From Aromatoleum toluclasticum ATCC 700605 (GTDB lineage Bacteria > Pseudomonadota > Gammaproteobacteria > Burkholderiales > Rhodocyclaceae): a stretch of 64,000 bases of DNA. The translations under genes were made by a program, and so were the position numbers. The notes beneath the pieces are model-generated. The model searched no databases. It was not told the DNA's origin and worked only from the letters and a program-made list of their open reading frames with translations. The DNA is taken from NCBI RefSeq assembly GCF_000378245.1, contig NZ_KB899492.1:248001-312000 (forward strand). The letters run 5' to 3'. This document shows, piece by piece, positions 45,280 to 64,000 of this stretch. Within the stretch, counting starts at the first letter, position 1, and each line of letters opens with the position of its first letter.

Positions 45280-45477
45280 ATGTCAGATCGCTGGTTGTCG
45301 GTCGAGGAGATCGCAGAGTACCTCGGCGTCAGTAAGGACACCGTCTATGCATGGATCAGCAAACGGAACATGCCGGCTCACCGTATCGGCCGGCTGTGGA
45401 AGTTCAAGACCGAAGAAGTGGATGAATGGGTCCGTTCTGGAGGGGCGGCGGATGCCGAGAGTAAGGGCAAGAAATGA
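45280..45477 (+). CDS. Excisionase-type helix-turn-helix protein
   Basis: The product (65 residues from ATG 45280; ATG 45265 is an alternative) is a single winged-helix domain of the MerR/excisionase family: WLSVEEIAEYLGVSKDTVYAWISK, then RIGRLWKFKTEEVDEWVR. Such proteins bind DNA to bend it for excision or to regulate neighbouring genes. Standing alone at the head of the defence operon, it could be its regulator or an ICE excision factor. Confidence 0.8.
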   Translation: MSDRWLSVEEIAEYLGVSKDTVYAWISKRNMPAHRIGRLWKFKTEEVDEWVRSGGAADAESKGKK

Positions 45478-45543
45478 AGTGCTGGTTTGCCATGGGTTTC
45501 GCCCACTTCGTTCAAACATCGAAGTGGAAGCAGGGGATGTGAT

Positions 45544-46587
45544 GTGACAACGATTTCTTGTGTGGATTTGTTCTGCGGCGCGGGCGGGCTGACGCATGGC
45601 TTCGTCCTGGAGGGGCTCCCCGTGGTCGCCGGTATCGATCTGGACCCTGCGTGCCGCTTCCCTTATGAGGCCAACAACCAGGCCCGATTCGTCGAACGGG
45701 ATATCAGCAAGGTCACCGCGTCTGAACTGAAAGCGCTGTTCGGCGACGCCGACCTGACGATTCTCGCGGGCTGCGCCCCGTGCCAACCCTTCTCGACCTA
45801 CGCACAGCGCTACGAATTGGACGGGAAGGATGGCAAGTGGGGCTTGCTGTATGAGTTCGCGCGTCTCGCCAAAGGCGCCAAACCCGATGTCATCACGATG
45901 GAAAACGTCCCTACCGTCGCGAAGCACGAAGTGTTTCATGACTTCGTCGATACGCTGAAACGGCTCGGCTACAACGTCTGGTTCGATGTCGTCGACAGCT
46001 CCCGCTATGGCGTGCCGCAGATGCGGCGACGCATGGTGCTGCTGGCATCGAAACATGGCGCCATCAAAATGATCGAGCCGACCCACGAAAAACCAAAGAC
46101 GGTTCGTCAAGCCATTGGCCGCTTACGCCCATTGAGTGCAGGCGAGGCGGCGCCGAGAGACAAATTGCACGTCACCTCGACGCTGTCGGAAAAGAATCTC
46201 AAGCGGATCAAGGTATCGAAACCCGGTGGCACTTGGCGCGATTGGCCGGATGATCTGGTCGCCGACTGTCACCGCGCAGAGAGCGGGCGTACCTATCCGG
46301 GCGTCTACGGCCGCATGGAGTGGGACAAGCCAGCGCCCACGATGACGACCCAGTGCTACGGCTTCGGAAACGGCCGTTTCGGGCACCCGGAGCAAGATCG
46401 CGCCATCTCATTGAGAGAGGCTGCGATCCTCCAGAGTTTCCCGCGCGACTACGCTTTCGTTCCCGACGGCGGCGAAGTGAGTTTCACGGTTCTAGGGAGG
46501 CTCATCGGCAACGCGGTACCCGTCGATCTCGGCCGTGCCATCGCGCGCAGCATCAACACCCATCTCGCAGCGGTTGCGACCCGATGA
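45544..46587 (+). CDS. DNA C5-cytosine methyltransferase
   Basis: The 347-residue product carries the ordered C5-methylase motifs: I (VDLFCGAGGLTHGF), IV with the catalytic Cys80 in CAPCQPF, VI with ENVP at 120-123, VIII (SRYGVPQMRRRM), a target region with KVSKPGGTWRDWP, and X (IGNAVPVDLGRA). The GTG at 45544 is the likely start because motif I follows at once and AGGGG lies upstream. It is followed by vsr 21 bp later. It could self-protect the defence system (class 2 DISARM uses a C5 methylase) or be a dcm/vsr-like cassette placed in front. Confidence 0.92.
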   Translation: MTTISCVDLFCGAGGLTHGFVLEGLPVVAGIDLDPACRFPYEANNQARFVERDISKVTASELKALFGDADLTILAGCAPCQPFSTYAQRYELDGKDGKWGLLYEFARLAKGAKPDVITMENVPTVAKHEVFHDFVDTLKRLGYNVWFDVVDSSRYGVPQMRRRMVLLASKHGAIKMIEPTHEKPKTVRQAIGRLRPLSAGEAAPRDKLHVTSTLSEKNLKRIKVSKPGGTWRDWPDDLVADCHRAESGRTYPGVYGRMEWDKPAPTMTTQCYGFGNGRFGHPEQDRAISLREAAILQSFPRDYAFVPDGGEVSFTVLGRLIGNAVPVDLGRAIARSINTHLAAVATR

Positions 46588-46608
46588 CGAACTGACGAGT
46601 GCCTCCCG

Positions 46609-47064
46609 ATGTCGCGCATTCAGCCATCATCCCCGGAGACCAGTCGCCGCATGGCGAAGGTTCGGCAGAAGGGAACTAATGCCGAGATCGCACTGCGAAG
46701 AGAGCTTTATCGCAGAGGGCTGCGCTACCGGGTCGACTACGAGGTCCTGAAGAAACCTCGCCGCGTGGCGGACGTGGCCTTCCCGGCGTTGAAGATCGCC
46801 ATCTTCGTCGACGGGTGCTTCTGGCACGGTTGCCCGGAGCATGCCACCTGGCCAAAGCAGAACGCAGAGTTCTGGCGGCAGAAGATCGAGGCGAATCGCC
46901 TCAGGGATGCCGACACGAATTCGAGGCTTCTCGAGGTCGGTTGGACGGTACTGCGATTCTGGGCGCACGAGTCACCGATCGAAGCCACAGAAACCGTCGT
47001 ACAGACGGTGGCCATGGCGAGAGCGAAGCGCTGTGCATCGACTGGCGTACACGAGAAGAACTGA
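46609..47064 (+). CDS. vsr: Very short patch repair endonuclease (Vsr)
   Basis: Vsr nicks T:G mismatches left by deamination of 5-methylcytosine. The 151-residue protein has the Vsr core: RRMAKVRQKGTNAEIALR, RRVADVAFPALKIAIFVDG, and the zinc and active-site region FVDGCFWHGCPEH, followed by NRLRDADTNSRLLEVGW. It sits directly after the C5 methylase whose mutagenic product it would repair, and 8 bp before the helicase gene. Confidence 0.94.
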   Translation: MSRIQPSSPETSRRMAKVRQKGTNAEIALRRELYRRGLRYRVDYEVLKKPRRVADVAFPALKIAIFVDGCFWHGCPEHATWPKQNAEFWRQKIEANRLRDADTNSRLLEVGWTVLRFWAHESPIEATETVVQTVAMARAKRCASTGVHEKN

Positions 47065-47072
47065 ACAGGAAG

Positions 47073-50000
47073 ATGGCAGACCGCATGGAAATCTCGAACG
47101 ATCAGAAGCACGAGACCTACCGTGCTCGTCCGGAGCCCGGCCAGCTGGTCGAGGTTCGCCGGCGCCAGTGGGTCGTGGCGGATGTCGCCTCCTCGAAATT
47201 GGAGTCGGCTTCGGCGTCGCAGAACTGCGTGACGCTTTCATCCATCGACGAGGACGGCCTCGGCGAGGAGCTGGAGGTCATCTGGGAGATCGAGCCCGGC
47301 GCACAAGTCATCGAACGCGCAGGCTTGCCATCCATCACAGGGCAGGACGACTCGGACACGCTGGAAGCCTTTCTCGATGCAGTCCGTTGGGGCGCCGCAA
47401 CCAACGCCGACAGAGGATTTCTGCAGGCGCCGTTCCGTAGTGGCGTCAGCATCGAGGACTTCCAGCTCGACCCTCTGGTACGCGCCATCGACATGGCTCG
47501 CGTCAACCTGCTCATCGCCGACGACGTCGGTCTGGGTAAGACCATCGAAGCCGGGCTGGTCATCCAGGAGATGCTGCTCCGGCACCGCGCTCGTACCGTA
47601 TTGATCATCTGTCCCGCCTCGCTCCAGGAGAAATGGCGTGTCGAGATGCTCGAGAAGTTCGGCCTCGAATTCCGCGTGGTTGACACCACCTACATCAAGC
47701 AATTGCGGCGCGAACGCGGCATCCACGCCAACCCGTGGACGTCCCACCCACGTCTCATCGCCTCGATGGACTGGGTCAAGAGTGGCGAAGGCCTGCGCGC
47801 CATGCGCGATGTTCTTCCGCCGCATGCCGGCCATCCGCGCAAGTTCGACCTTCTGGTCGTGGACGAGGCGCACAACATCGCCCCCGCCGCCGGCGCGCAT
47901 TACGCGCTCGAGAGCCAACGTACGCGCTTCATCCGTGCGATCAGCCCGCACTTCCAGCATCGGCTGTTCCTGACCGCGACACCGCACAACGGCTATACCG
48001 AGTCGTTCACCTCGCTACTGGAGTTGCTGGACGACCAGCGATTCGCCCGCAACATCCTTCCCGACGAGAAGCAGCTGAGTCAGGTGATGATCCGTCGCCT
48101 GAAGAGCGACCTGGTCGACGCCGACGGCAAGCCGCTGTATGCCCAGCGCAAGCTGCAGGCGCTGGCGGTTCCGTACACGGATGAGGAACGGGAGATCCAC
48201 CAGAAGCTGAACGATTACTGTGCAAGTCGCGAAAAAGACGCGGAGAAGGCTGGCAGCACATTCGGCACGTCGTTCGTCAATCAACTGCTCAAGAAGCGCC
48301 TGTTCTCGTCGCCCGCTGCGTTCGCTTCCACGCTAGAAAAACACATCGCCTCGCTGTCGAGTGGGGCCAAGCCCAAGGTGCAGGACGCCATGGCCGAGCG
48401 CATCCTGCGCAAGGCCATCCTGAAAGTCGACGAGGACTACGCCAACGACCAGGAGGTCGAGAACGCCCAATCGGAGGCCGTCGAGGAGGCTTCGCGCCGA
48501 GCCCAGCCGCTGACTCAGGAACAGCAACGGATGTTGGCCGAGCTGAGGGGATGGGCGCAACGAGCCAAGAACCAGGCCGATTCCAAGGCCAAGGCCATCA
48601 TCGAATGGCTCTCAGCCAACCTGAAACCGGGCGGCCAGTGGAACGATTGCCGGGTGATCCTGTTCACCGAATACCGCACCACGCACCAGTGGATGCACGA
48701 GATCCTCGCCAGCCATGGTTTCGGTGGCGAACGCCTTGGCCTGCTCCACGGCGGACTCACTCAGGATGAGCGGGAGCCCATCAAAGCCGCGTTCCAGGCC
48801 TCCCCCAAGGATTCCCCCGTCCGCATCCTGCTCGCCACCGATGCGGCCTCCGAAGGTATCGATCTGCAGAACCACTGTAACTGCCTCATCCACTTGGAGA
48901 TCCCCTACAACCCCAACGTGATGGAGCAGCGAAACGGGCGCATCGACCGTCACGGGCAACGAGAGAAAGAGGTACTGATCTGGCACCCGGTCGATGGCGG
49001 AGACAAGGGCCATGCATCGGTCGGTGGCCACGGCGATGACATCCTCCGCGCCCTGCGCAAACTGGAGTCGATGCGCGCCGATATGGGCAGCGTCAATCCA
49101 GTGATCGCGCCCCAGATATCCGGCCTCATCGAAGGCTCGCTGAAGGACCTCGACACCCGCCTGGCAGAGGCCAAGATCGCCAAGTCCCGGCGCTTCGTGC
49201 GCGCCGAACGCGAACTGAAGGAGCGCGTCGCCAAACTGCACGAACGTCTCTTGGCCACGCAGCAGGATTTTCACCTCACGCCGGATCACATCCAGATGGC
49301 GGTAAAAACCAGTCTCGCGCTGGCGGGCCGTCCTCCACTGGAACCCGTCGCCCTGCCGGATGCTCCCGGGGGCAGCATATTCAGAATGCCGGCACTGTCC
49401 GGTTCGTGGGCGCGCTGTCTGGAAGGCTTGCGTCACCCCCACACCCAGCAGATACGTCCCATCACCTTCGACCACGCCGTGGCAAAGGGACGAGACGATG
49501 TCGTACTCGTCCACCTGAACCATCGCCTGGTGCAGATGTGCCTGCGCCTGTTGCGTGCCGAAGTCTGGGCGCAGGACGACGTCAAAAAACTGCATCGAAT
49601 CACCGTGCGCACGGTGCCGGATGGACGCATCGAAGGTCCGGCCGTGGTCGTTGTCTCGCGTCTGGTCATCACCGGCGGCAACCACCATCGACTGCATGAG
49701 GAATTGACCGTCTCAGGCGGCTATCTGCGCGATCAGACGTTTAGGCGCGAAGAGGCTGTCACTCGTTTCCAGCAGTGGCTGGACGAGGCGCAGCCGGTCA
49801 CGGCGAACGAGTCGCTGTTCGATGCCCTCCGGGTGCGGTTCGATCGCGCCCAGCCAGCCATCCTGCAAACCGTCGATGCTCGCTCCAAGGATCGACTCAA
49901 GTTTCTGGCCAACACCCTGAAGGCCCGCAAGCAGCAGGAAATTGACGACATCGGCGCCGTGCTCGACGAACTCGAAAGGGCAATCCAGAACGAGCTGAAG

Positions 50001-50219
50001 AAAGATCAGCAGCCCGAGCAGCTCTCACTGTTCACCGAGGACGAACGCACCCAGCTCCGACGCGACACCGCCGCGCTGGAGGCCCGCCTCGCACGCATCC
50101 CGGCCGAACGCATCCAGGAGGTCCAGGCCATCGAAACCCGCTACGCCAAGCTCGATGACCGCACCTTCCCGGTCGCCGTCGTCTTCCTCGTTCCCGAGTC
50201 TGCGGGAGGGCTGGCGTGA
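47073..50219 (+). CDS. drmD: SNF2-family helicase, DISARM DrmD-like
   Basis: The 1048-residue protein starts with a small beta-rich module (PGQLVEVRRRQWVVADV) and has a full SNF2 motor: Walker A DDVGLGKT with Lys156, DEAH at 264-267, SATPHNG-type motif III (TATPHNG), and motif VI RNGRIDRHGQ near residue 622. The C-terminal third is helical and charged. Length, N-terminus and the immediately overlapping large adenine methylase gene fit DrmD of class 1 DISARM. ATG 47073 lies close to its AGGA; ATG 47085 is possible. Confidence 0.8.
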   Translation: MADRMEISNDQKHETYRARPEPGQLVEVRRRQWVVADVASSKLESASASQNCVTLSSIDEDGLGEELEVIWEIEPGAQVIERAGLPSITGQDDSDTLEAFLDAVRWGAATNADRGFLQAPFRSGVSIEDFQLDPLVRAIDMARVNLLIADDVGLGKTIEAGLVIQEMLLRHRARTVLIICPASLQEKWRVEMLEKFGLEFRVVDTTYIKQLRRERGIHANPWTSHPRLIASMDWVKSGEGLRAMRDVLPPHAGHPRKFDLLVVDEAHNIAPAAGAHYALESQRTRFIRAISPHFQHRLFLTATPHNGYTESFTSLLELLDDQRFARNILPDEKQLSQVMIRRLKSDLVDADGKPLYAQRKLQALAVPYTDEEREIHQKLNDYCASREKDAEKAGSTFGTSFVNQLLKKRLFSSPAAFASTLEKHIASLSSGAKPKVQDAMAERILRKAILKVDEDYANDQEVENAQSEAVEEASRRAQPLTQEQQRMLAELRGWAQRAKNQADSKAKAIIEWLSANLKPGGQWNDCRVILFTEYRTTHQWMHEILASHGFGGERLGLLHGGLTQDEREPIKAAFQASPKDSPVRILLATDAASEGIDLQNHCNCLIHLEIPYNPNVMEQRNGRIDRHGQREKEVLIWHPVDGGDKGHASVGGHGDDILRALRKLESMRADMGSVNPVIAPQISGLIEGSLKDLDTRLAEAKIAKSRRFVRAERELKERVAKLHERLLATQQDFHLTPDHIQMAVKTSLALAGRPPLEPVALPDAPGGSIFRMPALSGSWARCLEGLRHPHTQQIRPITFDHAVAKGRDDVVLVHLNHRLVQMCLRLLRAEVWAQDDVKKLHRITVRTVPDGRIEGPAVVVVSRLVITGGNHHRLHEELTVSGGYLRDQTFRREEAVTRFQQWLDEAQPVTANESLFDALRVRFDRAQPAILQTVDARSKDRLKFLANTLKARKQQEIDDIGAVLDELERAIQNELKKDQQPEQLSLFTEDERTQLRRDTAALEARLARIPAERIQEVQAIETRYAKLDDRTFPVAVVFLVPESAGGLA

Positions 50220-53200
50220 GCGCCAACGACCTGCACCACGATTGGCTGGCGCTCATCGAGATCTCCGGCCCGTTCCTCGCCGTTCCCGTCCTCAAGGAAG
50301 TCTTTCCTCAAGGGCTGGAAGAACTCGACGGACTCAAACGCAAGCGGCTGCGCCAGGCCTACGAGGAATGGCGTGAGGCACTCGAGACGGATGACTCACA
50401 GTTCCCCGAGCTGCACGCCGCCTGGATCGACGAGGTGCTGTCGCGCGGTCTGGAACTTGATGAGGATGGCCGAGGCGACGTCCTGAAGCGCGCCGATTGG
50501 TGTGCGGCCAACCTGAATACCAGTCTGCCCGAGCATGGGGTGACCTCGTCTCCGGACCTCGCGGTCGTCGACGAGCAGCGCGCCGACAAGCCGCTGATGC
50601 TCATCCACACCTATTCGCAGGACGTCGACCTCGATGCGACCCTGAAGCCGGACGGATGGGCCAGCACCCCGGCCGATCGCATGGTCCAACTGTGCCGCGC
50701 CACCGGTTGCCGCCTCGGGCTGGTGAGCAATGGCGAGCGCTGGATGCTGGTCGACGCCCCGGTAGGCGCCGTCACTACCTTCGCCAGCTGGTACGCCCGC
50801 ATCTGGAGCCAGGAGCCCATCACCCTACAGGCCTTCGTGCACGTGCTGGGGATTCGTCGCTTTTTCGTCGGTGAAGCCGAACAACTGCCGGCGCTTTTCG
50901 ACCGATCCCTGAAGTATCAGGACGAGGTCACCGACGCCCTCGGTGAGCAGGTGCGGCGCGCTGTCGAAGTGCTGATCCAAGCGCTCGACAAGGCCGACCA
51001 GGACCGCGATCGCGAGTTGCTGCGCGACGTGAAAGAGCCAGTGCTCTACGAAGCCGCGCTGACGGTGATGATGCGGTTGGTGTTCCTGCTCTCCGCCGAG
51101 GAGCGTGGCTTGCTGCTGCTTGGCGACGAGCGCTACGAGGCCAATTACGCGCTCTCGACGCTGCGCATGCAGTTGCGCAAAGAATCCGAGGAGATCCTCG
51201 AACGCCGCTGGGATGCCTGGTCGCGCCTGCTGGCGAACTTCCGCGCCGTGTTCGGTGGCATCGAACACGAGAACCTACGCCTGCCCGCGCTGGGTGGTTC
51301 GCTGTTCGACCCGGATCGTTTCCCTTTCCTCGAGGGCCGTGCCAAAGGCTCCGACTGGCGCACCGATACCGCCAAACCGCTACCGATCGACAACCGCACC
51401 GTGCTGCTGTTGCTCGAGGCCATCCAGCAGTTCCAGGGTCGGACGCTGTCCTACCGCGCGCTGGATGTCGAACAGATCGGCTACGTCTACGAGGGCCTGC
51501 TGGAGCGCACCGTCAAGCGCACCGCCGAGGTCACGCTGGAACTCGACGGCACCAAGAGTGCCAAGGCCCCCTGGGTCAAGTTGGCCGAGCTGGAGTCTGC
51601 CCGGCTGGACGGCGCAGAACGCCTCGCCGAGTTGCTTCAGGAGCGTTCCGGCAGTTCCCTCAGCCGCGTGCGCAACGATCTGGCCAAGCCCGTCGATGAC
51701 ACGCTCGCCGATCGCCTACTTGCAGCCTGCCATGGGGATACGGCACTGCGTAATCGCATCAAGCCCTTTGCCCACCTCGTGCGCACCGATCCGTGGGGCT
51801 ATCCGCTGATCTATCCCGCCGGTGCCTTCGTCGTCACCACCGGCTCCGACCGGCGCGAGACTGGCACCCACTACACCCCGAAGTCGCTGACCGAGGCCAT
51901 CGTCACCGAGACGCTCACCCCGGCCGCCTACTTTGGGCCAGCGGAAGGCAAGTCACGCGAAGAGTGGGTGTTGAAGTCACCCCCCGAACTGCTCGACCTC
52001 AAGATCTGCGACCCGGCCATGGGCTCGGGCGCCTTCCTTGTGAAAGCCTGCCGTTGGTTGGCCGACCGTCTGGTCGAGGCCTGGGCGCTGGCCGAAGACA
52101 ATGGCCACGCCGTCAGCGTCGATGGCCAAGTGCTGCCCGATGCCAGCGGCAAGGAGCTTTTGCCGCGCGATGCCGAGGCCCGTACCGTGATCGCCCTACG
52201 CCTCATCGCCGAGCGCTGTCTCTATGGTGTGGATCTGAACCCGCTGGCGGTCGAACTCGCCAAGCTCTCGATTTGGCTGGTGACGCTGGCCAAGGGGCGC
52301 CCGTTCGGCTTCCTCGACCACAACCTGCGTTGTGGCGACAGCCTGCTCGGCATCCACCGGCTGGACCAGCTCACCGAACTCTCCATGACGCCGACTGGCA
52401 AGGGCCAGCAGCGCTTGTTCGGGAAGAACATCGAACAGGCGGTGCATGAAGCGATCGAGCTGCGCCAGCGGCTGCGTGAGATGCCGATACGTGACATCCA
52501 CGACGTCGAGGCGATGGCGCGGCTGGATGCCGATGCACGCCGCCGACTCGAAGTCCCGGAGCGGATCGCAGACGCCTTCATCGGAGAAGTATTCAGCACT
52601 TGCGGCAGCGGATCAGTCCTAGAAACCGCGTTCGCGTCGCTCGCCATCCAGGCCGAGCATGCGATCGACGGTGACCAAAATGCGCTCAAGGGGGTCATGG
52701 ACCGCGCGCTTAGCGCGCTCTCGGTCGACATGCCACAAGGACAATCAAAACGCAGACCATTCCATTGGGCTCTCGAATTTCCCGAAGTATTCGGGCGGCG
52801 GAATGGAGGTTTCGATGCGTTCGTCGGCAATCCGCCGTTCCTCGGTGGCAAGAGGATCAGCACCGTCCTGGGCACGACGTTCAACACCTACCTTTCCGTT
52901 CTTCATCCACCGGCAAGCAAGAATACCGACCTGTCCGCTCACTTTTTCCGACGAGCGTTCAGCACACTCCGGGATGCCGGCAATTTTGGTCTGCTCGCCG
53001 TCAACACCATAGCCGAGGGTGACACCAGGCAAGGTGGCCTCGAATGGATGACGAAAAACGGGGCGACGATCTATGCCGCATTCCCCAATGAACCCTGGCC
53101 GGGTAAGGCCGCGGTGGTGACGAGCCGCGTACACGTGCACAAAGGGAGTTGGAGCGGAACCAAGACTCTATCCGGCAGACCGGCAGCCTTCGTTTCTGCC

Positions 53201-54601: not shown

Positions 54602-56382
54602 TGGAACAGTCCTGGTTTGAGATGGCCGAGATTCGGCGGCGCAAGTTTGCCAACGGGGTCTGGATTCCCTTGCGCGCCATCCATTCTGTGCAGGAACTGG
54701 GAGCGCGCGGCCATTCTGGATTCAAAGAGGAATTCTTCGGCGCAGGCTCGCTTGCTGTGCCTGTCGATCAGAAGGACGAGGCGCTCAATCTCGAATGGAT
54801 GGATGTCGGCATCAGCCGTGAGCACGGCGCATCTGTCGATTCGGGGCGCTATATCCCGTCCGACATCTACGAAGTGACACGCGGACAGCCGCTGGGACTC
54901 GCCTTGGTCCTCGAGCAACGGCTGAACCGCACTGAACATCCTGTCTGGCATCTGCATCAAGATATCGTCTTGGCGCTACATCTCAAGCGCGAAGGAGACC
55001 GGTGGGTATGCCCGGACGAGGGCTATGTCGAGGTTGCCAAACTTTCTCGCCACAGTGACGGTCGCCCGTATCTCCTAGTGATGCGCGCCGAGTTTCTGTT
55101 CGACTACCTCTGTGCTCGAAAAATGGGGCTATACATCACCTCTTACCGAAATCGGGAGGAGGTCGTAGAGGATGTCAGCCACATCAAGTGGACGAATGAT
55201 CCCGAGAGCGACAAACGAGAAGGCGAACGCTGGGAAGGCCGAATCATCGCCATCCATGAGGGTGGCATGCCTTTCGGCGCAGAAACCGCAGTCTTTCATG
55301 TTTCCAGAACGGACGTCGACCCTGAGGAAGATGTTCCGACCTTTGGCTTTCCGACTGATGACACCACCGCGTCGAAGTCATGGTCCTTCAAACGGCGCGA
55401 GAGAAAGCTGTTCATCGTCCAAGGCGAGTATTGGCGGGATGAATGGATCGACCCAGGGACGTACAGCCCGCGCATCCGTGGCGATTCCGTGCCGGGGTCG
55501 GTGTTTTTCATCACTGATACTGCCGGTACTCGCGAGTCCAAGGACACTTTGGACAAGGAGAGTCGTTGGTTATGGTTTCGTCCCGACGTCATTACTGCGC
55601 TGGTCGATCGGCGCGGTGGCAACTTGCGTTGGTACACGCGGGATACCGGTTCGGTTTCGTGCTCACCTGACTACGGCGTGCATTTCGGTGTCAATTCGCT
55701 TGGGCTGATCAACGGCTACGCCAAAGACATCGGACTCCTGCCCGATTGGCAACAGCGGATCTGGTCTGGGTTCAATGTGAGCCCAGAAGGTGGTGTATCC
55801 GAGGAATTGCTCGCTTCGCAGATGCGAGCCGACCCAGCCAACACCGAGGCACCTGAATCTCGGTTTGTTGCGGCGCTCTCCTCAATGGACGAGTCTTTCC
55901 GCGCAGCTACTGGCAAACCACTGCTTCGTGAGCATCCATATCGCCCGGAGGTTCTCGGACGCATTCATCGGTTCCGTGCGATCGATCAGAAAGGACTGTT
56001 CGCGCTGGCCAAGGACATCGCCAGACTCACTGCTGACAGCATTGACGTCGCAGTTCTCCACGAGATCGTGGCTCCTCCGAAGGGCGAAAAATGGGGCTCT
56101 TTGAAATCTCTGGAAAAGGGCCTCACTTCAATCTGCCCAGTCGAGCAAGCACGTTCGACCCTGACCCCGCTCGTCGGCGCATATGAGCTCCGCCACGCAG
56201 ACGCTCACCTGCCAGGTAGTGAACTTGCCCAAGTCATGAAGATGGCTGGCATGGACGAATCAAGCGCACCGATGCAACAAGGCATCGCGCTCATAGAGAA
56301 TTGTGCTAATTCTATCGAAGCGATCACCGAGGTGCTTCCCAGCTTGGCACCGAAGGCATCTGTGGAGGGCACCCATGAGTGA
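54598..56382 (+). CDS. Unrecognised defence-operon protein with possible C-terminal HEPN motif
   Basis: I do not recognise the 594-residue product. It is acidic, soluble and rich in aromatic residues, with no signal or membrane helix. The first 450 residues seem mixed alpha/beta (KSWSFKRRERKLFIVQGEYW; SRWLWFRPDVITALVDRRGG). The last 110 are helical and contain RHADAH (532-537), matching the R-[NDHK]-x-x-x-H motif of HEPN ribonuclease domains such as Abi-C types. The start is GTG 54598 (4-bp overlap) or ATG 54601. It ends overlapping the GHKL gene. Toxin effector or sensor are possible roles. Confidence 0.75.
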   Translation: MMEQSWFEMAEIRRRKFANGVWIPLRAIHSVQELGARGHSGFKEEFFGAGSLAVPVDQKDEALNLEWMDVGISREHGASVDSGRYIPSDIYEVTRGQPLGLALVLEQRLNRTEHPVWHLHQDIVLALHLKREGDRWVCPDEGYVEVAKLSRHSDGRPYLLVMRAEFLFDYLCARKMGLYITSYRNREEVVEDVSHIKWTNDPESDKREGERWEGRIIAIHEGGMPFGAETAVFHVSRTDVDPEEDVPTFGFPTDDTTASKSWSFKRRERKLFIVQGEYWRDEWIDPGTYSPRIRGDSVPGSVFFITDTAGTRESKDTLDKESRWLWFRPDVITALVDRRGGNLRWYTRDTGSVSCSPDYGVHFGVNSLGLINGYAKDIGLLPDWQQRIWSGFNVSPEGGVSEELLASQMRADPANTEAPESRFVAALSSMDESFRAATGKPLLREHPYRPEVLGRIHRFRAIDQKGLFALAKDIARLTADSIDVAVLHEIVAPPKGEKWGSLKSLEKGLTSICPVEQARSTLTPLVGAYELRHADAHLPGSELAQVMKMAGMDESSAPMQQGIALIENCANSIEAITEVLPSLAPKASVEGTHE

Positions 56383-58330
56383 CACCTACAAGATGACGGT
56401 CGACCTGAACGTGCTCGACCACCTCGGGATCAACCTCTACAGCAACATCGCCGCCGTTCTGACCGAAGCCGTCGCGAACGCATGGGATGCCGACGCGGAG
56501 ACCGTCGACATAAAGATCGACCCGAACGGAAACTTGATCGAGATCGTCGATGACGGCATCGGAATGTCGGTCGAGGACATGAACGGCAAGTACCTGCGAG
56601 TTGGTTACCGGCGGCGTGATGAAGACGTCGAGCATGGCAAGACCACGGCGAAGAGCCGCCCCGTGATGGGTCGCAAGGGGCTCGGCAAGCTCTCCCTGTT
56701 TTCGATCGCCAATATCATCGAGGTCGAGTCGGCCAGGGATGAAGTGGCGCACGGCCTTCGTATGACCGTGGCTGGAATCCATGAATCGGTTCGGAGGAAG
56801 GAACCGTTCTACAGCCCCGAGTCCCTACCTCCAGAACAAATCACCGTCGCAAAGGGCACCCGAATCGTCCTACGCGACATCAAGCGGCAGCGCCTCGGCC
56901 GTGGAGCGCTGGCGCTGCGCAAGCGCCTGGCTCGCCGCTTCTCCGTGATCGGTGAGGCGCACGGATTCAAGATCGACCTCGACGGCCAACCCATCACGTC
57001 TTCCGATCGTGGCGACCTGCCGATGGTGCAGTTCCTCTGGCAGTTCGGCGATGACGTGCTCGACCTGACTCCCGCCAGTCAGCTTCTGGAGCAGGAATCG
57101 CTGCCAAACCGCTTCGATGCCTGGGACACCGGGTGGAAGGTCAGCGGCTGGATCGGTACAGCCAGGTTCCCCAAGCAACTCGACAGTGAGGATGCCGGCA
57201 ATTTGAATGGCATCGTCGTGTTCGCCCGTGGCCGCTTGTTCCACGAGAACATCCTCGACAAGTTGAATGACGGGCGGCTCTACACGAAGTACCTCACCGG
57301 GCAGATCGAGGCCGATTTCCTTGATGCCGATGATGCACCAGATATCGCGACCAGCGATCGCCAGCGTGTCCAGGAGGATGACCCCCGATATGCGCAGTTG
57401 ATCGCTTTCCTGAAGTCGCGCCTGACGCAGGTCGAGAAGCGCTGGACGGAATGGCGCAAGAAACACGAGGTCGAGAAGGCTAAGGAGACGTCTCCCGCCC
57501 TAGCCGAGTGGCTCGACACGCTCCCCGAGGGATACAAGAAGAGTGCGGAGACACTGATCGCCAAGCTCAGTGCGCTGCCGGTCGATGAGGAAGAGGACCG
57601 GAAGCTCATGTATCGGCATGGGATCCTGGCATTCGAGCGCATGAAGCTGCGCGGCTCGACCGAGGAGTTCGTGACGAGCATCGAGAGTGCGGACAGGCTC
57701 CTGGCAGTGCTCGCCGACAGGGACTCTCTCGAAGCCTCCCTCTACCGGGACATCGTGAAGTCCCGTCTGGATGCGATCCGGGATTTCCAGACCATCATCG
57801 ATGAGGACGCGAAAGAACGCGTGCTCCAGAAGTACCTGTTCGACCATCTCTGGTTGCTGGACCCGGCATGGGAGCGCGCCACGGGCAGCGAGCTCATGGA
57901 ATCGCGTCTGACGAAGGAAGGCGTGCTCGTCGACAACCTGACCGAGAAAGAGCGTTTGGGGCGTGTCGACATCGCCTACCGCACCAATGCCGGTAAGCAC
58001 GTCATCGTCGAACTCAAGAAGGTCGGTCGCAGGATGGGATTGCTTGAGCTGGTGGAGCAAGGCCAGACCTACGTCGACAAGCTGAAAAAGATCCTGCGCG
58101 AGCAAAACGATGTCAGCCCCAACATCGAGGTGATCTTCGTCCTTGGCAAATGCGTCGACGAAGAGGCATCGAACCCCGACCGTCTCAAGTCATCGATGAC
58201 GTCGATCTCGCCGGGCAGCCGCATCGTCCATTACGACACCCTGATTCGGGGTGCTCAAGAGGCCTATTCGGCATACATCGAAAAGAGCAAGTCACTCGAC
58301 AAGCTCGAAAAGATCGTGGACAGGATTTGA
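56375..58330 (+). CDS. GHKL (Hsp90/MutL/MORC-type) ATPase fused to a PD-(D/E)XK-like nuclease domain
   Basis: The 651-residue protein opens with a complete Bergerat ATP site: Glu31/Asn35/Asp38 in EAVANAWDAD, DDGIG at 59-63 and GRKGLGK at 99-105. A transducer-like domain and a coiled stretch (about 330-490) follow. The C-terminal 150 residues contain RVDIAY...VIVELKK with Asp532, Glu546 and Lys548 spaced as in PD-(D/E)XK nucleases. GHKL-nuclease proteins beside SNF2 helicases and methylases have been predicted in MORC-like restriction systems. It overlaps the previous gene by 8 bp. Confidence 0.85.
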   Translation: MSDTYKMTVDLNVLDHLGINLYSNIAAVLTEAVANAWDADAETVDIKIDPNGNLIEIVDDGIGMSVEDMNGKYLRVGYRRRDEDVEHGKTTAKSRPVMGRKGLGKLSLFSIANIIEVESARDEVAHGLRMTVAGIHESVRRKEPFYSPESLPPEQITVAKGTRIVLRDIKRQRLGRGALALRKRLARRFSVIGEAHGFKIDLDGQPITSSDRGDLPMVQFLWQFGDDVLDLTPASQLLEQESLPNRFDAWDTGWKVSGWIGTARFPKQLDSEDAGNLNGIVVFARGRLFHENILDKLNDGRLYTKYLTGQIEADFLDADDAPDIATSDRQRVQEDDPRYAQLIAFLKSRLTQVEKRWTEWRKKHEVEKAKETSPALAEWLDTLPEGYKKSAETLIAKLSALPVDEEEDRKLMYRHGILAFERMKLRGSTEEFVTSIESADRLLAVLADRDSLEASLYRDIVKSRLDAIRDFQTIIDEDAKERVLQKYLFDHLWLLDPAWERATGSELMESRLTKEGVLVDNLTEKERLGRVDIAYRTNAGKHVIVELKKVGRRMGLLELVEQGQTYVDKLKKILREQNDVSPNIEVIFVLGKCVDEEASNPDRLKSSMTSISPGSRIVHYDTLIRGAQEAYSAYIEKSKSLDKLEKIVDRI

Positions 58331-58340
58331 GGACGCCACC

Positions 58341-61300
58341 ATGCCTTGGAACCCCGGCCAACTAGTTCGCCACATCGACGATCCCGCGAAGGTCGGTACG
58401 GTCACCGACCAGACCAGGACGCGCGCCTCTGGCTCGCAGTCCCGAGTGAACTGGAACGGTCGCATGGACTGGCATTTCGAGGGTGAGCTGATCGCGGCTG
58501 ATGGGACTGATGATGACCCCTACGAGCTGATGCGTGAGGGGCGCTACGGTCGCGTGGATGACCTGCGGCGCCTGCTCACCCACGTCCACCTTGCCGGCCG
58601 CCTGGCGAACGTGGTCTATGCCATGGGGCTGACGCAGACCGACTTCTACCCGCACCAGTATAAGCCGCTGCTCACTCTGCTCGACTCGCCAGTCAATGGC
58701 CTATTGATCGCCGACGAGGTGGGTTTGGGTAAGACGATCGAGGCGGGGCTGATCTGGACCGAACTGCGCGCTCGCTACGACATGCGCCGGCTGATGGTGG
58801 TGTGTCCGGCAATGCTGCGCGAGAAGTGGCGCCTGGAACTCGCCAACCGCTTCGGTGTGGAAGCGCGTGCAGTGGACTCGGCCACGTTGTTGCAGGAACT
58901 TGAGACCGGTGACCACCGCGAACGGGCGTGGATCGTGAGCTACCAGGGCATCCGGGTGCCCAGCGGTTGGGATCCCGACGAGGCCGACGGGCCCAAGCGC
59001 GCAGTCCGTGCCCAGCTCGCAGACTTCCTCTGGCGTCGCGCGGACGCGGAGCCGCTGTTCGATCTAGTGATTTTCGACGAGGCGCACTACATGCGCAACG
59101 AGGAAACCGGCGCGTGGCGCACCGGAAGCCTGCTGCGCGATGTCAGCACGCATCAGGTGATGTTGTCAGCCACACCGATCAACCTCGGGGCGGAGGACTT
59201 GTTCAACGTGTTGAGGCTGCTTGACCCCGACCATTTCGAGTATCCCGAGGACTTCCGCAACGTCGTCCAGGCCAACCGCCCGGTGATCGCCGCCAGCGAC
59301 GTCGTACGCGACCCGTCGAGCGACGGTGATCGCATTTTGGAGGCGATCCGCGAGATCGCCTCGTCGCGCTGGTTCGAGCGTTCGGAACGCGTCGACAACC
59401 TGATCGAGGAGGCGGAAAGCGTCGATGACTGGACGCGAGTGCGTCGCGTGGAGTTCGCCGCCAAGATCGAGCGGCTCAATCTGCTCGCACATATCGTCAC
59501 CCGCACGCGCAAGCGCGAGGTGCAGGCCGAGCGGGTGGTGCGCGACGCGACCGTCTTCGAGGCCGAGATGTCGCCCGTCGAGCGGTCGCTCTACCGGGCG
59601 ATCACCGAGGGCACGCGCGACTATGCGCTGGCCAACGGCATCGAGCACGGGTTCCTTCTTTCTACACCGCAGCGGATGGTTGCGTCCAGTCCGGCTGCGT
59701 TACTACGGACCTGGCGCGACGACGCAATCGACGACGACGCCATGGCGTCCGCGATGGACGAGAACGACGAGGACGAAGAGCATCTGCGCAAGTCGTCATC
59801 TGGGCTCAAGAGCTGGCTGGCAGAGAATGTGCTGCGCGACTTCGATCCCGGCGAACTGACCCGGTACGACTCGAAGTTCGCTGAGCTCTCCCAAGCGATG
59901 AAGCGCTTCCTGAAGGACGACCGCGAAGGTAAGGCGATCGTATTCACCACATTCCGGGGCACCGCGCGCTATCTCGTCGATCGCCTGCCCACCGAGAACA
60001 TCGAGGCGGGGCTCCTGATGGGCGGTGCGGAGTTCGACAAGGAGGCGGTCGTGAACGCCTTCCGCGACGACCGTAGTTGCCGCGTGCTGGTCTGTACCGA
60101 TGTCGCGGCCGAAGGCTTGGACCTGCAATTCTGCCGTCTCGTTGTCAACTACGACCTGCCCTGGAATCCGATGCGCATCGAACAGCGGATCGGTCGTATC
60201 GACCGGATCGGACAGCAGTCCAAGCGCATCCTGGTGTGGAACTTCGTACACAAGGACACTATCGACGCGCTTATCCTCACGAGACTCGCGAAACGTATCG
60301 GCGTCTTCGAGAGCACTTTAGGCGAGACCGAAGAGATCCTCGGCCAGGTCCGACGGCTTGAGGACATCCTCCTGTCCAGGCGCTTGACGACGGAGGAAGA
60401 GGAACGGCTGATCGAGGAAGTGGCGCTGGCGATCGAGAACGTCAAGCGTAAACAGGAGGAGCTCGAACGCGAGGCGATCCAGTTGGTCGCGCACGGCCAA
60501 CAGTTGCTGGCGCAGATCGAGGCGGCACGGGGTGAGGGAAAGGTCGTGACCCGACACGACCTGATCCGATATGTCGCGGGTTGGATTGGGGCCGTTCAGG
60601 GTTGCCGTTTCCTCGCGGTCCGTGCTGAGGAAGACACGTTCGACGTACAACTCGCACCCGCCGTGGCGGCGGAATTCGACGAGTTCCTCCGGCGCGAGCG
60701 CCTGGCCGGCAGGACCGCGCTCGCCAGCGGCCAAGTGCGTCGCTGCCGCTTCGCCGACCGGATCACCGACAAACCCAGGCCCGGGGAAGAGGTCGTCCAT
60801 CGCTTCCACCCCTTGGTGCGCTTCGTGTCGCGCAAGGCAGACGACGACGGAGAGCCTTTCCCTCTGTATGCGTCCAGGGTCGCGGTCGAAGGGGTCTCAC
60901 CAGGGCAATGGGTGTTGCTCGCAAAGCTCGCGAGCTTCTCGGGGGTCAAGGACGAAGAGCGTCTGCTCGTCTCGGCCGTACCACTCTGGGGCGGCACGCC
61001 GATGGACGGCCAGGACGCGGAAAGCCTGCTTGATGCGGTGAGGAAGTCGGGCGGAGACTGGCCGAGCGTAGCGGTCGACATCGAAGCCGGGGTCGCGGCA
61101 GCTGGCCTCGAGCGTTGTGAGGAAGCAGTCAGGGCCCGCTACGCCGCGCTAAGAGATGCCACGAAACGCGAAAACCGTGACCGTGCCGACGTGCTCGCGC
61201 AAATCTTGGAAGATCACGTCAGCAAGAAGCGCGAGGGTTTCGAGCGGCGCATCCAGAGTCACGAGTTTTTCGCCAGCCTTAATGGCAATTCCCCTGACGG

Positions 61301-61466
61301 CAAGCGGCGCAAGGGTCTGGCAAACGCGGAGCGTAAGAAGCTCGAGAATTTCCTCGCGAGGATGGAAACCCGCCGTGCCGCGTTGATACGCAAGAGTGAG
61401 TCTTTCTCGGCCGACACGCGTGATATCTGCGCGCTGGTGGTGCATGTGGTACGGGAAGGGGGATAG
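58341..61466 (+). CDS. Second SNF2-family helicase of the defence operon
   Basis: A 1041-residue SNF2 protein distinct from the DrmD-like one. Its N-terminus (GQLVRHIDDPAKVGTV) looks like a small barrel, followed by LTHVHLAGRLANVVYAMGLTQTDFYPHQ. The motor has Walker A DEVGLGKT with Lys131, DEAH at 246-249, SATPINL, and motif VI QRIGRIDRIGQ near 615. A charged DENDEDEEH insertion lies between the lobes and a long coiled C-terminus follows. DpdE-like helicases of DNA-modification systems have similar layout, so assignment to one named family is uncertain. It starts 10 bp after the GHKL gene. Confidence 0.85.
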   Translation: MPWNPGQLVRHIDDPAKVGTVTDQTRTRASGSQSRVNWNGRMDWHFEGELIAADGTDDDPYELMREGRYGRVDDLRRLLTHVHLAGRLANVVYAMGLTQTDFYPHQYKPLLTLLDSPVNGLLIADEVGLGKTIEAGLIWTELRARYDMRRLMVVCPAMLREKWRLELANRFGVEARAVDSATLLQELETGDHRERAWIVSYQGIRVPSGWDPDEADGPKRAVRAQLADFLWRRADAEPLFDLVIFDEAHYMRNEETGAWRTGSLLRDVSTHQVMLSATPINLGAEDLFNVLRLLDPDHFEYPEDFRNVVQANRPVIAASDVVRDPSSDGDRILEAIREIASSRWFERSERVDNLIEEAESVDDWTRVRRVEFAAKIERLNLLAHIVTRTRKREVQAERVVRDATVFEAEMSPVERSLYRAITEGTRDYALANGIEHGFLLSTPQRMVASSPAALLRTWRDDAIDDDAMASAMDENDEDEEHLRKSSSGLKSWLAENVLRDFDPGELTRYDSKFAELSQAMKRFLKDDREGKAIVFTTFRGTARYLVDRLPTENIEAGLLMGGAEFDKEAVVNAFRDDRSCRVLVCTDVAAEGLDLQFCRLVVNYDLPWNPMRIEQRIGRIDRIGQQSKRILVWNFVHKDTIDALILTRLAKRIGVFESTLGETEEILGQVRRLEDILLSRRLTTEEEERLIEEVALAIENVKRKQEELEREAIQLVAHGQQLLAQIEAARGEGKVVTRHDLIRYVAGWIGAVQGCRFLAVRAEEDTFDVQLAPAVAAEFDEFLRRERLAGRTALASGQVRRCRFADRITDKPRPGEEVVHRFHPLVRFVSRKADDDGEPFPLYASRVAVEGVSPGQWVLLAKLASFSGVKDEERLLVSAVPLWGGTPMDGQDAESLLDAVRKSGGDWPSVAVDIEAGVAAAGLERCEEAVRARYAALRDATKRENRDRADVLAQILEDHVSKKREGFERRIQSHEFFASLNGNSPDGKRRKGLANAERKKLENFLARMETRRAALIRKSESFSADTRDICALVVHVVREGG

Positions 61467-61469
61467 AAC

Positions 61470-63113
61470 ATGAATGGCTGGAAGGATCAGCTACGCAATG
61501 TCAAACGTGCCTTGCGGCAGGCAGGCCCGTTCGAGAAACATGACGATAAACCAGCAAGCGTCGATTTCGTGCCACCGAAGTCGTGGGTGGACAGTGCCTC
61601 GACCGAACGTGGGTCGGGGCCGAAACGAACTGCCTCGCCAACGCACGCCAATCGACCGTCTAGCGGCAATCGTACAGCCTCGGGACTGCAGGCCACCGGG
61701 AAGCCAGGTAGTTGGCCGAGTGACGCGAGATCCGCGGCGTCCCTACCTGTATTCCAGCCCCGGATCGATGGCTCGCAATTTTTGACTATTCCCGACTGGG
61801 CAGGAGTCGGCAAAGCCTTGCAACACCCCGAATCCCGCGGCGGTGCCCCCCTGTTGGTCAGGCTCGGTATCGATTTCGGCACCGCATTCACCAAGGCCGC
61901 TCTCCGCGCAGGTCCAGACCTGGTGACCGTGGATTGGTCCACAGTGACCGGTGACGATTCGCCTGCGGGGCGCTGGATCGTGCCGGGCTTCGTATGTCGG
62001 GGATCCGGCGGTGAGTTCGGCTGGCGACGTTTCGAAGGGGGTGAATGGCAGGGCAACTTGAAGCTCCCGCTCGTTGAAAGCCCACCGAGTGCCTCTTGCC
62101 CCTATTCTGCGCTGGCCTATATGGCCGAGGTCATCCGCTATTCGCGGGCATTTCTGTACCGACATCCGGAGGTCGGTCGCAAGCTGGCGAATCGGTCGTT
62201 ACGATGGGAGTTGAATCTCGGTTGCCCGACTGAACCACACGAAAACTCGGAGATCGTCGAACGGTTCCGACACGTGGCGCGCACTGCGTGGTGGCTCGCC
62301 GGCCGTGACGATCTCGACGAGGCGGCCATCCGTGCCGCATGGGACCGCCGCGATCTCGACACCGGACTCGAAACCCAGCCAGGTGTCGTTCCCGAGTTCG
62401 TCGCCCAGATTGCAGGCTATCTGAAGTCACCACAGGTCACCGAAGGACTGCATGCGCTCATCGACGTCGGCGCCGCCACGTTGGACGTTGCGACGTTCAA
62501 TGTCGTGCTCCCCAAGCAGGACACCGTGCCTCGCGTTCCGATCTTCTTCTCAGCGGTCAAGCAGCTCGGCACCCACTTCCTCTCACACGAACGCCACGCG
62601 AGACTCGGTCTCGAACTCGTCTGGAACGACGCAACGCCGATAGAAACCGCCGCCGAATTCGTGCGCCGTCATGGCAGGGATGTGACGGAGGTCGACGTGA
62701 TTGATGTGGAGTTCGCAAACAGAGTCGCCAGTTGCATCGCCAGCGTGATGAATGGAACGCGTACGAACGCTCGAGGCGACCCACGGAGTGCCGCTTGGAG
62801 AGAAGGTCTGCCGGTTTTCGTGACGGGCGGAGGGTCGGCTTGCGAAGTCTATGGTCGAGCCATCAGGGAAAGCGAAACCAAGCTGAAGGGTTGGATCTGT
62901 TCGAAGGAGCGCTTCAGATTCATCGAGATGGATTTGGCCCCGGCAACCTCAACCGACGTCGACCCCGCTGCGGCAGTCAGACTAACGGTTGCGATCGGCT
63001 TGACGGAGGACGCGGAGGACATCGCGCGCATCGTTCCGCATTTCGACATTGAGCCTATCACAAGAACGGCCAATGCACTGCGTCCAGATAGGGACGAACT
63101 TTACCCGCAATGA
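61470..63113 (+). CDS. Hsp70/actin-fold (ASKHA) ATPase of the defence operon
   Basis: The 547-residue protein has a disordered, Ser/Thr/Pro-rich start (about 1-125) and then an ASKHA fold: phosphate-1 loop GIDFGTAFTKA with Asp135, phosphate-2 IDVGAATLDVATF with Asp332, and adenosine loop VTGGGSA (451-457). It lacks the Hsp70 substrate-binding domain. The helix-rich insertion around 200-320 is not one I can assign. It begins 3 bp after the helicase stop. A chaperone-like assembly or switch role is likely, but the true function is unknown. Confidence 0.8.
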   Translation: MNGWKDQLRNVKRALRQAGPFEKHDDKPASVDFVPPKSWVDSASTERGSGPKRTASPTHANRPSSGNRTASGLQATGKPGSWPSDARSAASLPVFQPRIDGSQFLTIPDWAGVGKALQHPESRGGAPLLVRLGIDFGTAFTKAALRAGPDLVTVDWSTVTGDDSPAGRWIVPGFVCRGSGGEFGWRRFEGGEWQGNLKLPLVESPPSASCPYSALAYMAEVIRYSRAFLYRHPEVGRKLANRSLRWELNLGCPTEPHENSEIVERFRHVARTAWWLAGRDDLDEAAIRAAWDRRDLDTGLETQPGVVPEFVAQIAGYLKSPQVTEGLHALIDVGAATLDVATFNVVLPKQDTVPRVPIFFSAVKQLGTHFLSHERHARLGLELVWNDATPIETAAEFVRRHGRDVTEVDVIDVEFANRVASCIASVMNGTRTNARGDPRSAAWREGLPVFVTGGGSACEVYGRAIRESETKLKGWICSKERFRFIEMDLAPATSTDVDPAAAVRLTVAIGLTEDAEDIARIVPHFDIEPITRTANALRPDRDELYPQ

Positions 63114-63155
63114 ATGGCACTTTGCCCTTAACAAGTACCGGGTGTAAGCGGAGGA

Positions 63156-64000
63156 ATGATGGACATAAGACGTGAAAACAAAACGAGTCGGTCGGACGTC
63201 GCGCCCAACGCTTGGCTCGCCATCGATCACGGACTCGGCACCGACCACAGGCTCGAGCCCTTCATCCTGGTTCTGAAGGGTGAGCGTTCTCTCTATCAAA
63301 GTATCGAGGAGGACGACTGGGTCCTGGTCCTGAACCCCGCTGGCGGCATCACCCGTGTCGGGCGTGTGCTGCGGGTTCGCTCCGATCTCGAAACCACCGC
63401 ACTCCATTTCGACCGAGTGCTGTCGGTCACAGAACCCGCCTTGATCGGCCTCACTGCACTCACGCCGCCGTCATCGGGAAGCATCGGCCGCGTCCAGTGG
63501 ACCGATTTCGTCGAAGCCCTGCCCAAGGCGCTGCACAAGACCATCGCCGAGGTGCCGACGATCGGTTCCGACACCAGCTCGCCCCAGTATCAGCAGGAGC
63601 TCGCCTACATCCGCGAACTGCTGCAACTGGCCGTGATCGACGATCTGCTCGGCCCGGCCGGTGGCCCTCATGAACGCATTGTCGACATGGGCGTTCGGGA
63701 TCGCTATCTGGTCGGCAAGCTCGCCCCACGCGAGGCGGCAAAGGGTGGCACCGAGGGGCTCGAAGGAGCTCTGGCGAACGATGATGTCGAGGAGCCCATC
63801 GATCCGAAGCCGCCCGGCCAGCATGAACCGGGAGCAGAGTTCGGCACGGCGACTGGCCGTGTCGAGCCTGAATCCGATGCAACCGATGAGATCGACGCGG
63901 CCAGCAATCAATCGCTGGTGCCAAGCAGTCTCGGCATGACCTTTTGTGTGGATGGTGACGCCGAACGGATCGAGGTCGAGGTGCGCTGGGGGCGCTATGA
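63156..64000 (+). CDS. drmA: N-terminus of DISARM DrmA-like helicase (3' end outside window)
   Basis: An open frame from ATG 63156 (or 63159; GGAGGA just upstream) runs off the window after 281 codons. Residues about 20-95 form a beta-rich module (WVLVLNPAGGITRVGRVLRV) resembling PUA/EVE-like folds. Residues about 145-280 show IDDLLGPAGG, VRDRYLVGKLAPR, an acidic linker and SSLGMTFCVD followed by VEVRWGRY. This matches my memory of the N-terminal region of DrmA (L-x-GP, RYL-x-G-x-L-x-P, SSxG-x-x-F). The helicase motor itself would lie outside, so the call rests on the N-terminus. Confidence 0.6.
   Translation, partial: MMDIRRENKTSRSDVAPNAWLAIDHGLGTDHRLEPFILVLKGERSLYQSIEEDDWVLVLNPAGGITRVGRVLRVRSDLETTALHFDRVLSVTEPALIGLTALTPPSSGSIGRVQWTDFVEALPKALHKTIAEVPTIGSDTSSPQYQQELAYIRELLQLAVIDDLLGPAGGPHERIVDMGVRDRYLVGKLAPREAAKGGTEGLEGALANDDVEEPIDPKPPGQHEPGAEFGTATGRVEPESDATDEIDAASNQSLVPSSLGMTFCVDGDAERIEVEVRWGRY

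Follow-up and report, generated by a model that had tools for sequence, protein, structure and literature searches.

We analysed a 64,000-nucleotide stretch of DNA from Aromatoleum toluclasticum ATCC 700605 (hereafter the window; bases 248,001-312,000 of the 539,437-base contig NZ_KB899492.1, G000:C2, in a 5.9-Mb genome), in which a long defence operon begins near the right-hand end. The operon is best read as a complete class 1 DISARM (defence island system associated with restriction-modification) restriction operon that is carried as cargo of an integrative and conjugative element (ICE), holds a four-gene accessory block in a variable slot between drmMI and drmA, and works as proposed below; we assign this reading a probability of roughly 0.7. 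The last two genes of the block encode a second SNF2-family motor (SNF2b) and an ATPase of the ASKHA class with an Hsp70-like nucleotide-binding fold.

The initial annotation, made from the window alone, had described ten same-strand, closely packed genes running off the right edge, and all of these were present on the + strand without internal stops. The 1,001 bases shared by the window and the following stretch were identical, the contig continues beyond position 64,000, and extension by 20 kb yielded a run of 13 + strand genes with 0 internal stops: genes for a helix-turn-helix (HTH) protein, a C5-cytosine methyltransferase and a Vsr endonuclease, then drmD, drmMI, a gene for a 594-aa protein, a GHKL-nuclease gene, SNF2b, ASKHA, drmA, drmB, drmC and a gene for a 488-aa protein. 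Distances between the first ten genes were 66, 21, 8, −4, −4, −8, 10, 3, and 42 bp, and those from drmA through drmB and drmC to the 488-aa gene were −4, 1, and 34 bp, so that spacing over the whole operon ranged from −8 to +66 bp. The starts of drmD (about 47073), SNF2b (58341) and the GHKL-nuclease gene (56375) were adjusted by our choice.

Class 1 DISARM has the gene order drmD-drmMI-drmA-drmB-drmC. This order was retained as drmD-drmMI-[insert]-drmA-drmB-drmC, which bears out the earlier guess, while adjacency was broken by the four genes (8.5 kb) between drmMI and drmA. The product of drmD (47073-50219) is an SNF2-family helicase that scored 1431 bits with NCBIfam NF038317 (cut-off 610) and carries the motifs GLGKT, DEAH, and RIDRHGQ. 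Downstream of it, drmMI (50216-54601) encodes a type IIG-like, MmeI/Eco57I-like adenine methyltransferase with Pfam Eco57I and MmeI matches and an NPPF motif; its score was 1949 bits with PADLOC PDLC02643 (DrmMI) and slightly higher, 2057 bits, with a type IIG model of PADLOC, and no NCBIfam DrmMI model matched it in the NCBIfam scan. The YprA-like helicase DrmA (1351 aa; 63156-67211 in extended coordinates, in the window to 64000; L002:157-4212) reached 1491 bits with NF038325 (cut-off 950). The initial annotation had expected drmB (DUF1998) and drmC (phospholipase D, PLD) beyond 64 kb, and both were found there on the same strand. DrmB (621 aa; 67208-69073 extended, L002:4209-6074) scored 778 bits with NF038324 (cut-off 240), with an MZB domain at 43.6 bits (24.2), and DrmC (253 aa; 69075-69836 extended, L002:6076-6837) scored 258 bits with NF038319 (DrmC_I; cut-off 133) and 59.6 bits with PLDc_2 (27). 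The only PDB sequence at E 0.001 or below was 7S9V, both for DrmA (chain A, 2343 bits) and for DrmB (1263 bits). Judged by its sequence, the locus is thus a complete class 1 DISARM, with the NCBIfam DrmD, DrmA, DrmB and DrmC_I profiles above their curated cut-offs and the PADLOC DrmMI profile matched, as the Drm profile check suggested earlier had anticipated. The labels of PADLOC-DB look mixed, in that its PDLC02572, named DrmA, matched the canonical DrmD at 1757 bits.

Ahead of the core lie the C5 methyltransferase gene (45544-46587, +, with a GTG start of our choice; PF00145 194 bits; motifs PCQPF, ENV, and QxRRR) and the gene for the very-short-patch endonuclease Vsr (46609-47064, +; TIGR00632 110 bits vs. 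a cut-off of 98). Because the C5 enzyme is DrmMII-like (PADLOC DrmMII, 299 bits), both kinds of DISARM methyltransferase are present. Chance is no concern for the named families in view of the scores, which were 1,400-2,057 bits for the large Drm and SNF2 proteins, 299 for the C5 enzyme, and 110 for Vsr. The solved DrmA-DrmB structures of class 1 DISARM (7S9V/7S9W) come from Serratia sp. (PMC9142583), and the DrmA and DrmB of the window operon aligned with these chains over nearly their full length. The window differs from plain class 1 DISARM by the four genes between drmMI and drmA, by the C5 methyltransferase and Vsr in front and by the 488-aa gene behind. The order HTH, C5 methyltransferase, Vsr, DrmD, MmeI-like protein, DrmA, DrmB, DrmC is shared with the DISARM of Microvirga terrae plasmid pR24_2 (L008), in which the slot instead encodes a GHKL-type ATPase along with a Methyltransf_35 protein. 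In another relative, the C-terminal half of a DrmMI (recognition part, PADLOC DrmMI 664 bits; L033:6405-8012) overlaps the end of a DrmMI matching residues 7-925, which points either to a frameshift or to a DrmMI divided in two, with the recognition part resembling a specificity subunit of its own.

The insert occupies a position that was variable across relatives. When GTDB-species genomes were searched with a DrmA alignment of four rows, the 80 best matches (at least 80 loci) were taken, and three plasmid loci were added to them; being best DrmA matches, the loci are a non-random sample biased to relatives of the window DrmA, with flanks of at most 10 kb and many metagenome-assembled genomes (MAGs). 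Window proteins were mapped on these loci, and junction lengths were taken between the stop of the upstream gene and the extrapolated start of the downstream one. For the drmMI-drmA junction 62 of the 83 loci were assessable, since 18 had less than 4.4 kb upstream of drmA, DrmMI was missing from the 10 kb examined in two (L088, L090), and it lay elsewhere in one (L099). Junctions longer than 500 bp were found in 47/62 loci at drmMI-drmA, vs. 5/49 at drmD-drmMI, 2/82 at drmA-drmB, and 0/71 at drmB-drmC (Fisher p ≤1.2e-12 against each of the three others, related loci not being independent). The drmMI-drmA junction was closed (≤150 bp) in 14/62.

In the window, the slot holds the gene for the 594-aa protein (54598-56382, +; no family match, C-terminal R-x4-H), a restriction enzyme of the BbrUII/HgiDII family (56375-58330, +; GHKL ATPase and D-x(n)-ExK motif), SNF2b (58341-61466, +; GLGKT, DEAH, RIDRIGQ) and the ASKHA ATPase (61470-63113, +). 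Across the relatives the commonest content was a GHKL-type ATPase with a Methyltransf_35 protein (15 loci), followed by other GHKL proteins (nine loci), a DUF7380/DUF4209 protein (PDC-S39; four), an AspBHI-N/Mrr-type enzyme (four), UvrD helicases (four), GmrSD-like proteins (three), KAP ATPases (two), and further families; these were named from one scanned member per larger cluster, singletons being mostly unscanned. Six slot labels were then placed by hand on a DrmA tree of 63 rows, built by a quick method without bootstrap. Under the label rules, L025, which also has a DUF4209 gene, was counted with the GHKL-type ATPase and Methyltransf_35 label, 'GHKL only' brings together different subfamilies and also loci that carry additional genes, and 'other' is a mixed set of 20. 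The labels required 27 changes, with a possible minimum of five, and were overall more clustered than in shuffles (mean 36.2; 0/200 as low); the SNF2b-ASKHA, GHKL-only, and DUF4209 labels clustered no better than chance. Since 27 changes are needed, genes in the middle of the class 1 operon seem to have been swapped frequently. Rather than a fixed five-gene system, class 1 DISARM would seem to be a chassis whose middle can be exchanged, which opens to testing the question of why the phages stopped differ from one DISARM operon to another. In an Oscillatoria locus the slot carried XisH/XisI-type genes on the opposite strand (L012:18749-19527).

The SNF2b and ASKHA genes stood directly ahead of drmA in the window and in three relatives: L027 (Haliea MAG), L054 (Luteimonas wenzhouensis), and L061 (proteobacterial MAG). 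In these three SNF2b was 75-79% and ASKHA 49-55% identical to the window proteins. A GHKL gene was not seen in L054, and the GHKL proteins of L027 and L061 were different ones, about 30% identical to that of the window. The cassette in L054 was not uniformly closer to the window than its backbone (SNF2b 79%, DrmB 69%, DrmMI 62%, DrmA 60%, ASKHA 55%, DrmC 43%), and in L027 and L061 DrmA (80 and 84%) was closer than SNF2b (76 and 75%). On an SNF2 tree of 26 rows (in which L105 forms a long branch and three rows are of unusual composition), the four embedded SNF2b formed one clade (100/100), 12 canonical DrmD formed a separate clade (100/100), and nine free-standing SNF2b grouped with the embedded ones (97/98). 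On the DrmA tree the embedded pair required four changes for four rows, at least three of them forced by starred branches. Because SNF2b forms one clade while its DrmA carriers are scattered on their tree, these patterns fit a single SNF2b-ASKHA cassette that would have moved between DISARM backbones.

The same pair was also found away from DISARM. An ASKHA gene neighboured SNF2b in all 14 loci with a close SNF2b, namely the four embedded ones, 6/6 plasmid records (coverage ≥80%) and 4/4 sampled genomes other than the own one (SNF2b match of at least 535 bits). The 14 include near-copies, as the SNF2b of Shinella (L005) and of G451 (L103) are 99% identical and two Sphingobium plasmids gave the same identities. 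Three weaker SNF2b genome matches (284-303 bits) had no ASKHA gene in the stretches examined. In a fifth genome, found via ASKHA, SNF2b and ASKHA overlap by 4 bp and lie about 420 bp behind two frames whose first residues, read without a profile, resemble those of an Mre11-type exonuclease and of a Rad50-type ATPase. With the ASKHA protein alone as query, no relative came up among genome contigs, its alignment found none among viral contigs, and scans returned only the own genome among 200 genomes of the order, and the own plus one other among 369 of the class.

Neighbours of the free-standing pair were varied. McrC lies beside it in L006 (Pfam 241 vs. 24) together with a McrB-like AAA protein, and likewise, by similarity to L006, in L101 and L104; RecB-like or SF1 helicase-nucleases lie near the pair in L006, L101, and L102. 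No relatives of the window DrmA, DrmB or DrmC were found at E 1e-4 in 10/10 free-standing stretches (18-41 kb). The variety of neighbours supports a putative general helper role for the pair. At L102:268-6471, next to the pair, a weak PLD-like protein was seen (25 bits, below the Pfam cut-off of 27; ZacB-like at 57 bits), together with a 434-aa protein and an SNF2-like frame, a group that is perhaps Azaca-related. L104:78-7959 carries distant DrmMI-like (29%) and DrmD-like (30%) genes on the other strand beside SNF2b-ASKHA and McrB/McrC-like genes, and in the Shinella record a relative of DrmA lies about 47 kb away from the pair.

The ASKHA protein was assigned to its class from its fold and conserved residues. 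Its AlphaFold model had a mean predicted local distance difference test score (pLDDT) of 69, with residues 17-103 below 50. Foldseek returned DnaK as the best match (E 3.1e-10, probability 1.00) among DnaK/Hsp70 nucleotide-binding domains, at modest template modelling (TM) scores of 0.3-0.5. The protein has two phosphate motifs, an adenosine motif, and the actin/Hsp70 fold. Residues D135, T138, K198, E309, D332, G334, T337, and G453-455 were invariant in 13/13 aligned ASKHA proteins; we take these to be the counterparts of DnaK active-site residues, and the protein looks like one with an intact Hsp70-type active site. A PDB sequence search with the ASKHA profile gave nothing significant (best E 0.26), and a substrate-binding domain was not evident in the protein. 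The Hsp70-like CnuD of CoCoNuT McrBC systems is likewise an Hsp70-fold protein tied to restriction, and is described in the available part of its report as having degenerate Walker A-like motifs (PMC11090510), whereas the putative catalytic positions of the window protein are invariant and its neighbour is an SNF2 motor.

Taken together, these findings led us to a tentative proposal, which we consider close to an even bet: SNF2b and ASKHA would together form a portable unit of two genes that has escaped recognition, consisting of a DNA motor and an Hsp70-fold ATPase switch and serving varied nuclease systems (DISARM, McrBC-like, RecB-like, perhaps PLD and Mre11/Rad50-like), with the drmMI-drmA junction as the dedicated slot of the DISARM chassis, and with the pair hidden in annotation because the motor goes under the name DrmD and the partner is listed as hypothetical. 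The conserved motor-ATPase pair is a candidate defence module, unrecognised as such by the annotation models used. While the DISARM core is known, we met no description of the drmMI-drmA slot as measured here or of the SNF2b-ASKHA pair in the portions of the open-licence literature available to us. A published case of DISARM-like operons that enclose an additional defence gene is ShdA (Shield), for which the accessible text gives about 70 homologues, all in Pseudomonas; the inserted gene is a different one from those of the window (PMC10270631). McrBC associations with a DISARM-like system have been announced for a forthcoming paper (PMC11090510, in part), the ARMADA paper covers DISARM relatives with the slot arrangement unmentioned in the sections available (PMC12458937), and the available sections of the BREX paper mention neither DISARM nor Hsp70 (PMC12839542). 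The embedding of defences in immune systems has reportedly been published already as a general idea, to go by the title of a 2024 preprint by Payne and others.

The activities of all products, and any cooperation among them, are predictions, which we arrange as follows. DrmMI (adenine) and the C5 methyltransferase would mark host DNA, with Vsr limiting mutation at methylated cytosines. DrmA-DrmB would load onto invading DNA that lacks these marks and has free or single-stranded ends, and would then travel along it; cleavage would fall to DrmC or to other nucleases. The available part of the structural study describes DrmAB as autoinhibited, engaging unmodified 5'-overhang DNA, hydrolysing ATP more slowly on methylated DNA, and possibly recruiting DrmC or other nucleases (PMC9142583). 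The slot would add a second layer: the BbrUII-type enzyme as an additional endonuclease, SNF2b-ASKHA as an ATP-driven DNA motor with a nucleotide-switched Hsp70-fold partner that helps in remodelling or holding target DNA for the adjacent nuclease, and the 594-aa and 488-aa proteins, which may be RNase back-ups.

The GHKL-nuclease exceeded the BbrUII/HgiDII family cut-off (NCBIfam NF050001, 861 bits vs. 550; PADLOC REase_II 373 bits), but differs from the type II restriction-modification systems of that family in being embedded in DISARM and in having a partner methyltransferase that is putative. M.HgiDII is given as an m5C enzyme for GTCGAC in the part of the source available (PMC5867850). 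The BbrUII-type enzyme probably cuts where the C5 methyltransferase shields host DNA, at a site that is GTCGAC in the named family. The recognition domain of the C5 enzyme was 47-83% identical to those in 17 other loci; counts of CCWGG sites in the operon were uninformative.

As for the two proteins assigned to a possible RNase role, the RHADAH of the 594-aa protein was kept as R-x4-H in 8/8 intact homologues examined, and the 488-aa protein (69871-71337 extended, L002:6872-8338, +), which ends the operon, has RNRMIH near its C-terminus and relatives in only three plasmid records. These motifs hint at HEPN-like ends, and both proteins may be HEPN-type RNases. The model of the 594-aa protein was poor (mean pLDDT 53, weak outside the C-terminal helices), and a fold search with it gave no match at E 0.001 or below, an HEPN toxin ranking fourth at E 0.12 under two Avs3 chains. 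Neither these two proteins nor ASKHA had a family match in the PADLOC, Pfam, and NCBIfam scans. In the slot of Aquabacterium commune, directly before drmA, a 198-aa frame (L051:4652-5248) matched residues 1-81 and 480-583 of the 594-aa protein and is, by this alignment, an internally deleted remnant of it.

Several points weigh against the operon working as one system of this kind. A shared operon is no proof that nested genes act with DrmABC, and they may instead be systems of their own. Embedding of the pair is rare (3/62 assessable relatives), and the slot sample, whose members are not independent, leans toward loci with a DrmA related to this one. The C5 recognition domain was about equally conserved in the 15/17 loci without a BbrUII-type enzyme in the stretch examined, GTCGAC was undepleted in the operon (30 per 26.2 kb vs. 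31 in the preceding 45 kb), and the HEPN reading of the 594-aa protein draws on a motif together with a fold match that is weak. The slot could accordingly be a parking place with a shared promoter, in which the pair, the BbrUII-type enzyme, and the 594-aa gene act alone, without DrmABC; we regard this as a serious possibility, albeit a somewhat improbable one. It would agree with the great diversity of slot content, with a BbrUII-type enzyme downstream of drmC in L075, L069 and, more weakly (35%), L063, with the occurrence of the 594-aa family on plasmids apart from DISARM (once within a type I restriction-modification gene cluster), and with the relatives of the pair that lack drmA, drmB, and drmC. 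On the other hand, the four embedded SNF2b form a clade of their own apart from the nine free-standing ones, as expected if they were adapted to DISARM, and the pair lies immediately ahead of drmA in 4/4 embedded cases.

Alternatively, SNF2b could be a second DrmD that arose by duplication of drmD within the operon, which we consider very unlikely. The protein does exceed the NCBIfam cut-off for DrmD (698 bits vs. 610) and matched PADLOC PDLC02623, which is named DrmD, over its full length at 2007 bits, yet the 26-row tree places it outside the DrmD clade and with the free-standing, ASKHA-partnered SNF2b. Two of the latter, at 423 and 416 bits, do not reach the DrmD cut-off of 610, and DrmD co-occurs with SNF2b in two of the four embedded loci (L054 and the window), the stretches of L027 and L061 starting within drmMI. 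Duplication was therefore rejected on the tree. Since SNF2b is matched by models that PADLOC and NCBIfam name DrmD, the pair can go unnoticed in automatic annotation, and, as these models cover two clades, DrmD counts may be off. A decayed or non-functional mosaic, in which chance insertion of the four genes split drmMI from drmABC, is the least credible explanation and was rejected, as the 13 frames are intact and closely spaced with their catalytic motifs kept, and the wide drmMI-drmA junction recurs in 47/62 relatives.

The complete DISARM operon with its accessory block is flanked by ICE genes on the opposite strand, five on the left and five on the right, and all ten conjugative-element proteins tested exceeded their cut-offs (PFGI-1-class element); since conjugation genes flank the operon on both sides, the ICE cargo site suggested by the initial annotation holds. 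Promoter and terminator scans were no richer than shuffles (1 vs. a mean of 3.6, and 13 vs. a mean of 13.0, respectively). The first gene of the operon (45280-45477, +; ATG start of our choice, the longest frame running from 45214) encodes a small HTH_17/excisionase-type, MAD1-like DNA-binding protein (Pfam HTH_17 66 bits; NCBIfam MADS1 81.1 vs. a cut-off of 80). Membership of the operon in MADS was rejected, as this protein alone passes and no other operon protein had a mad model among the matches listed (at most 25 per protein), a mad8 match being to the TraD of the ICE. The HTH protein is a possible regulator of the operon, and similar HTH genes stand ahead of the C5 methyltransferase in L008, L041, L048, L058, L071, and L075.

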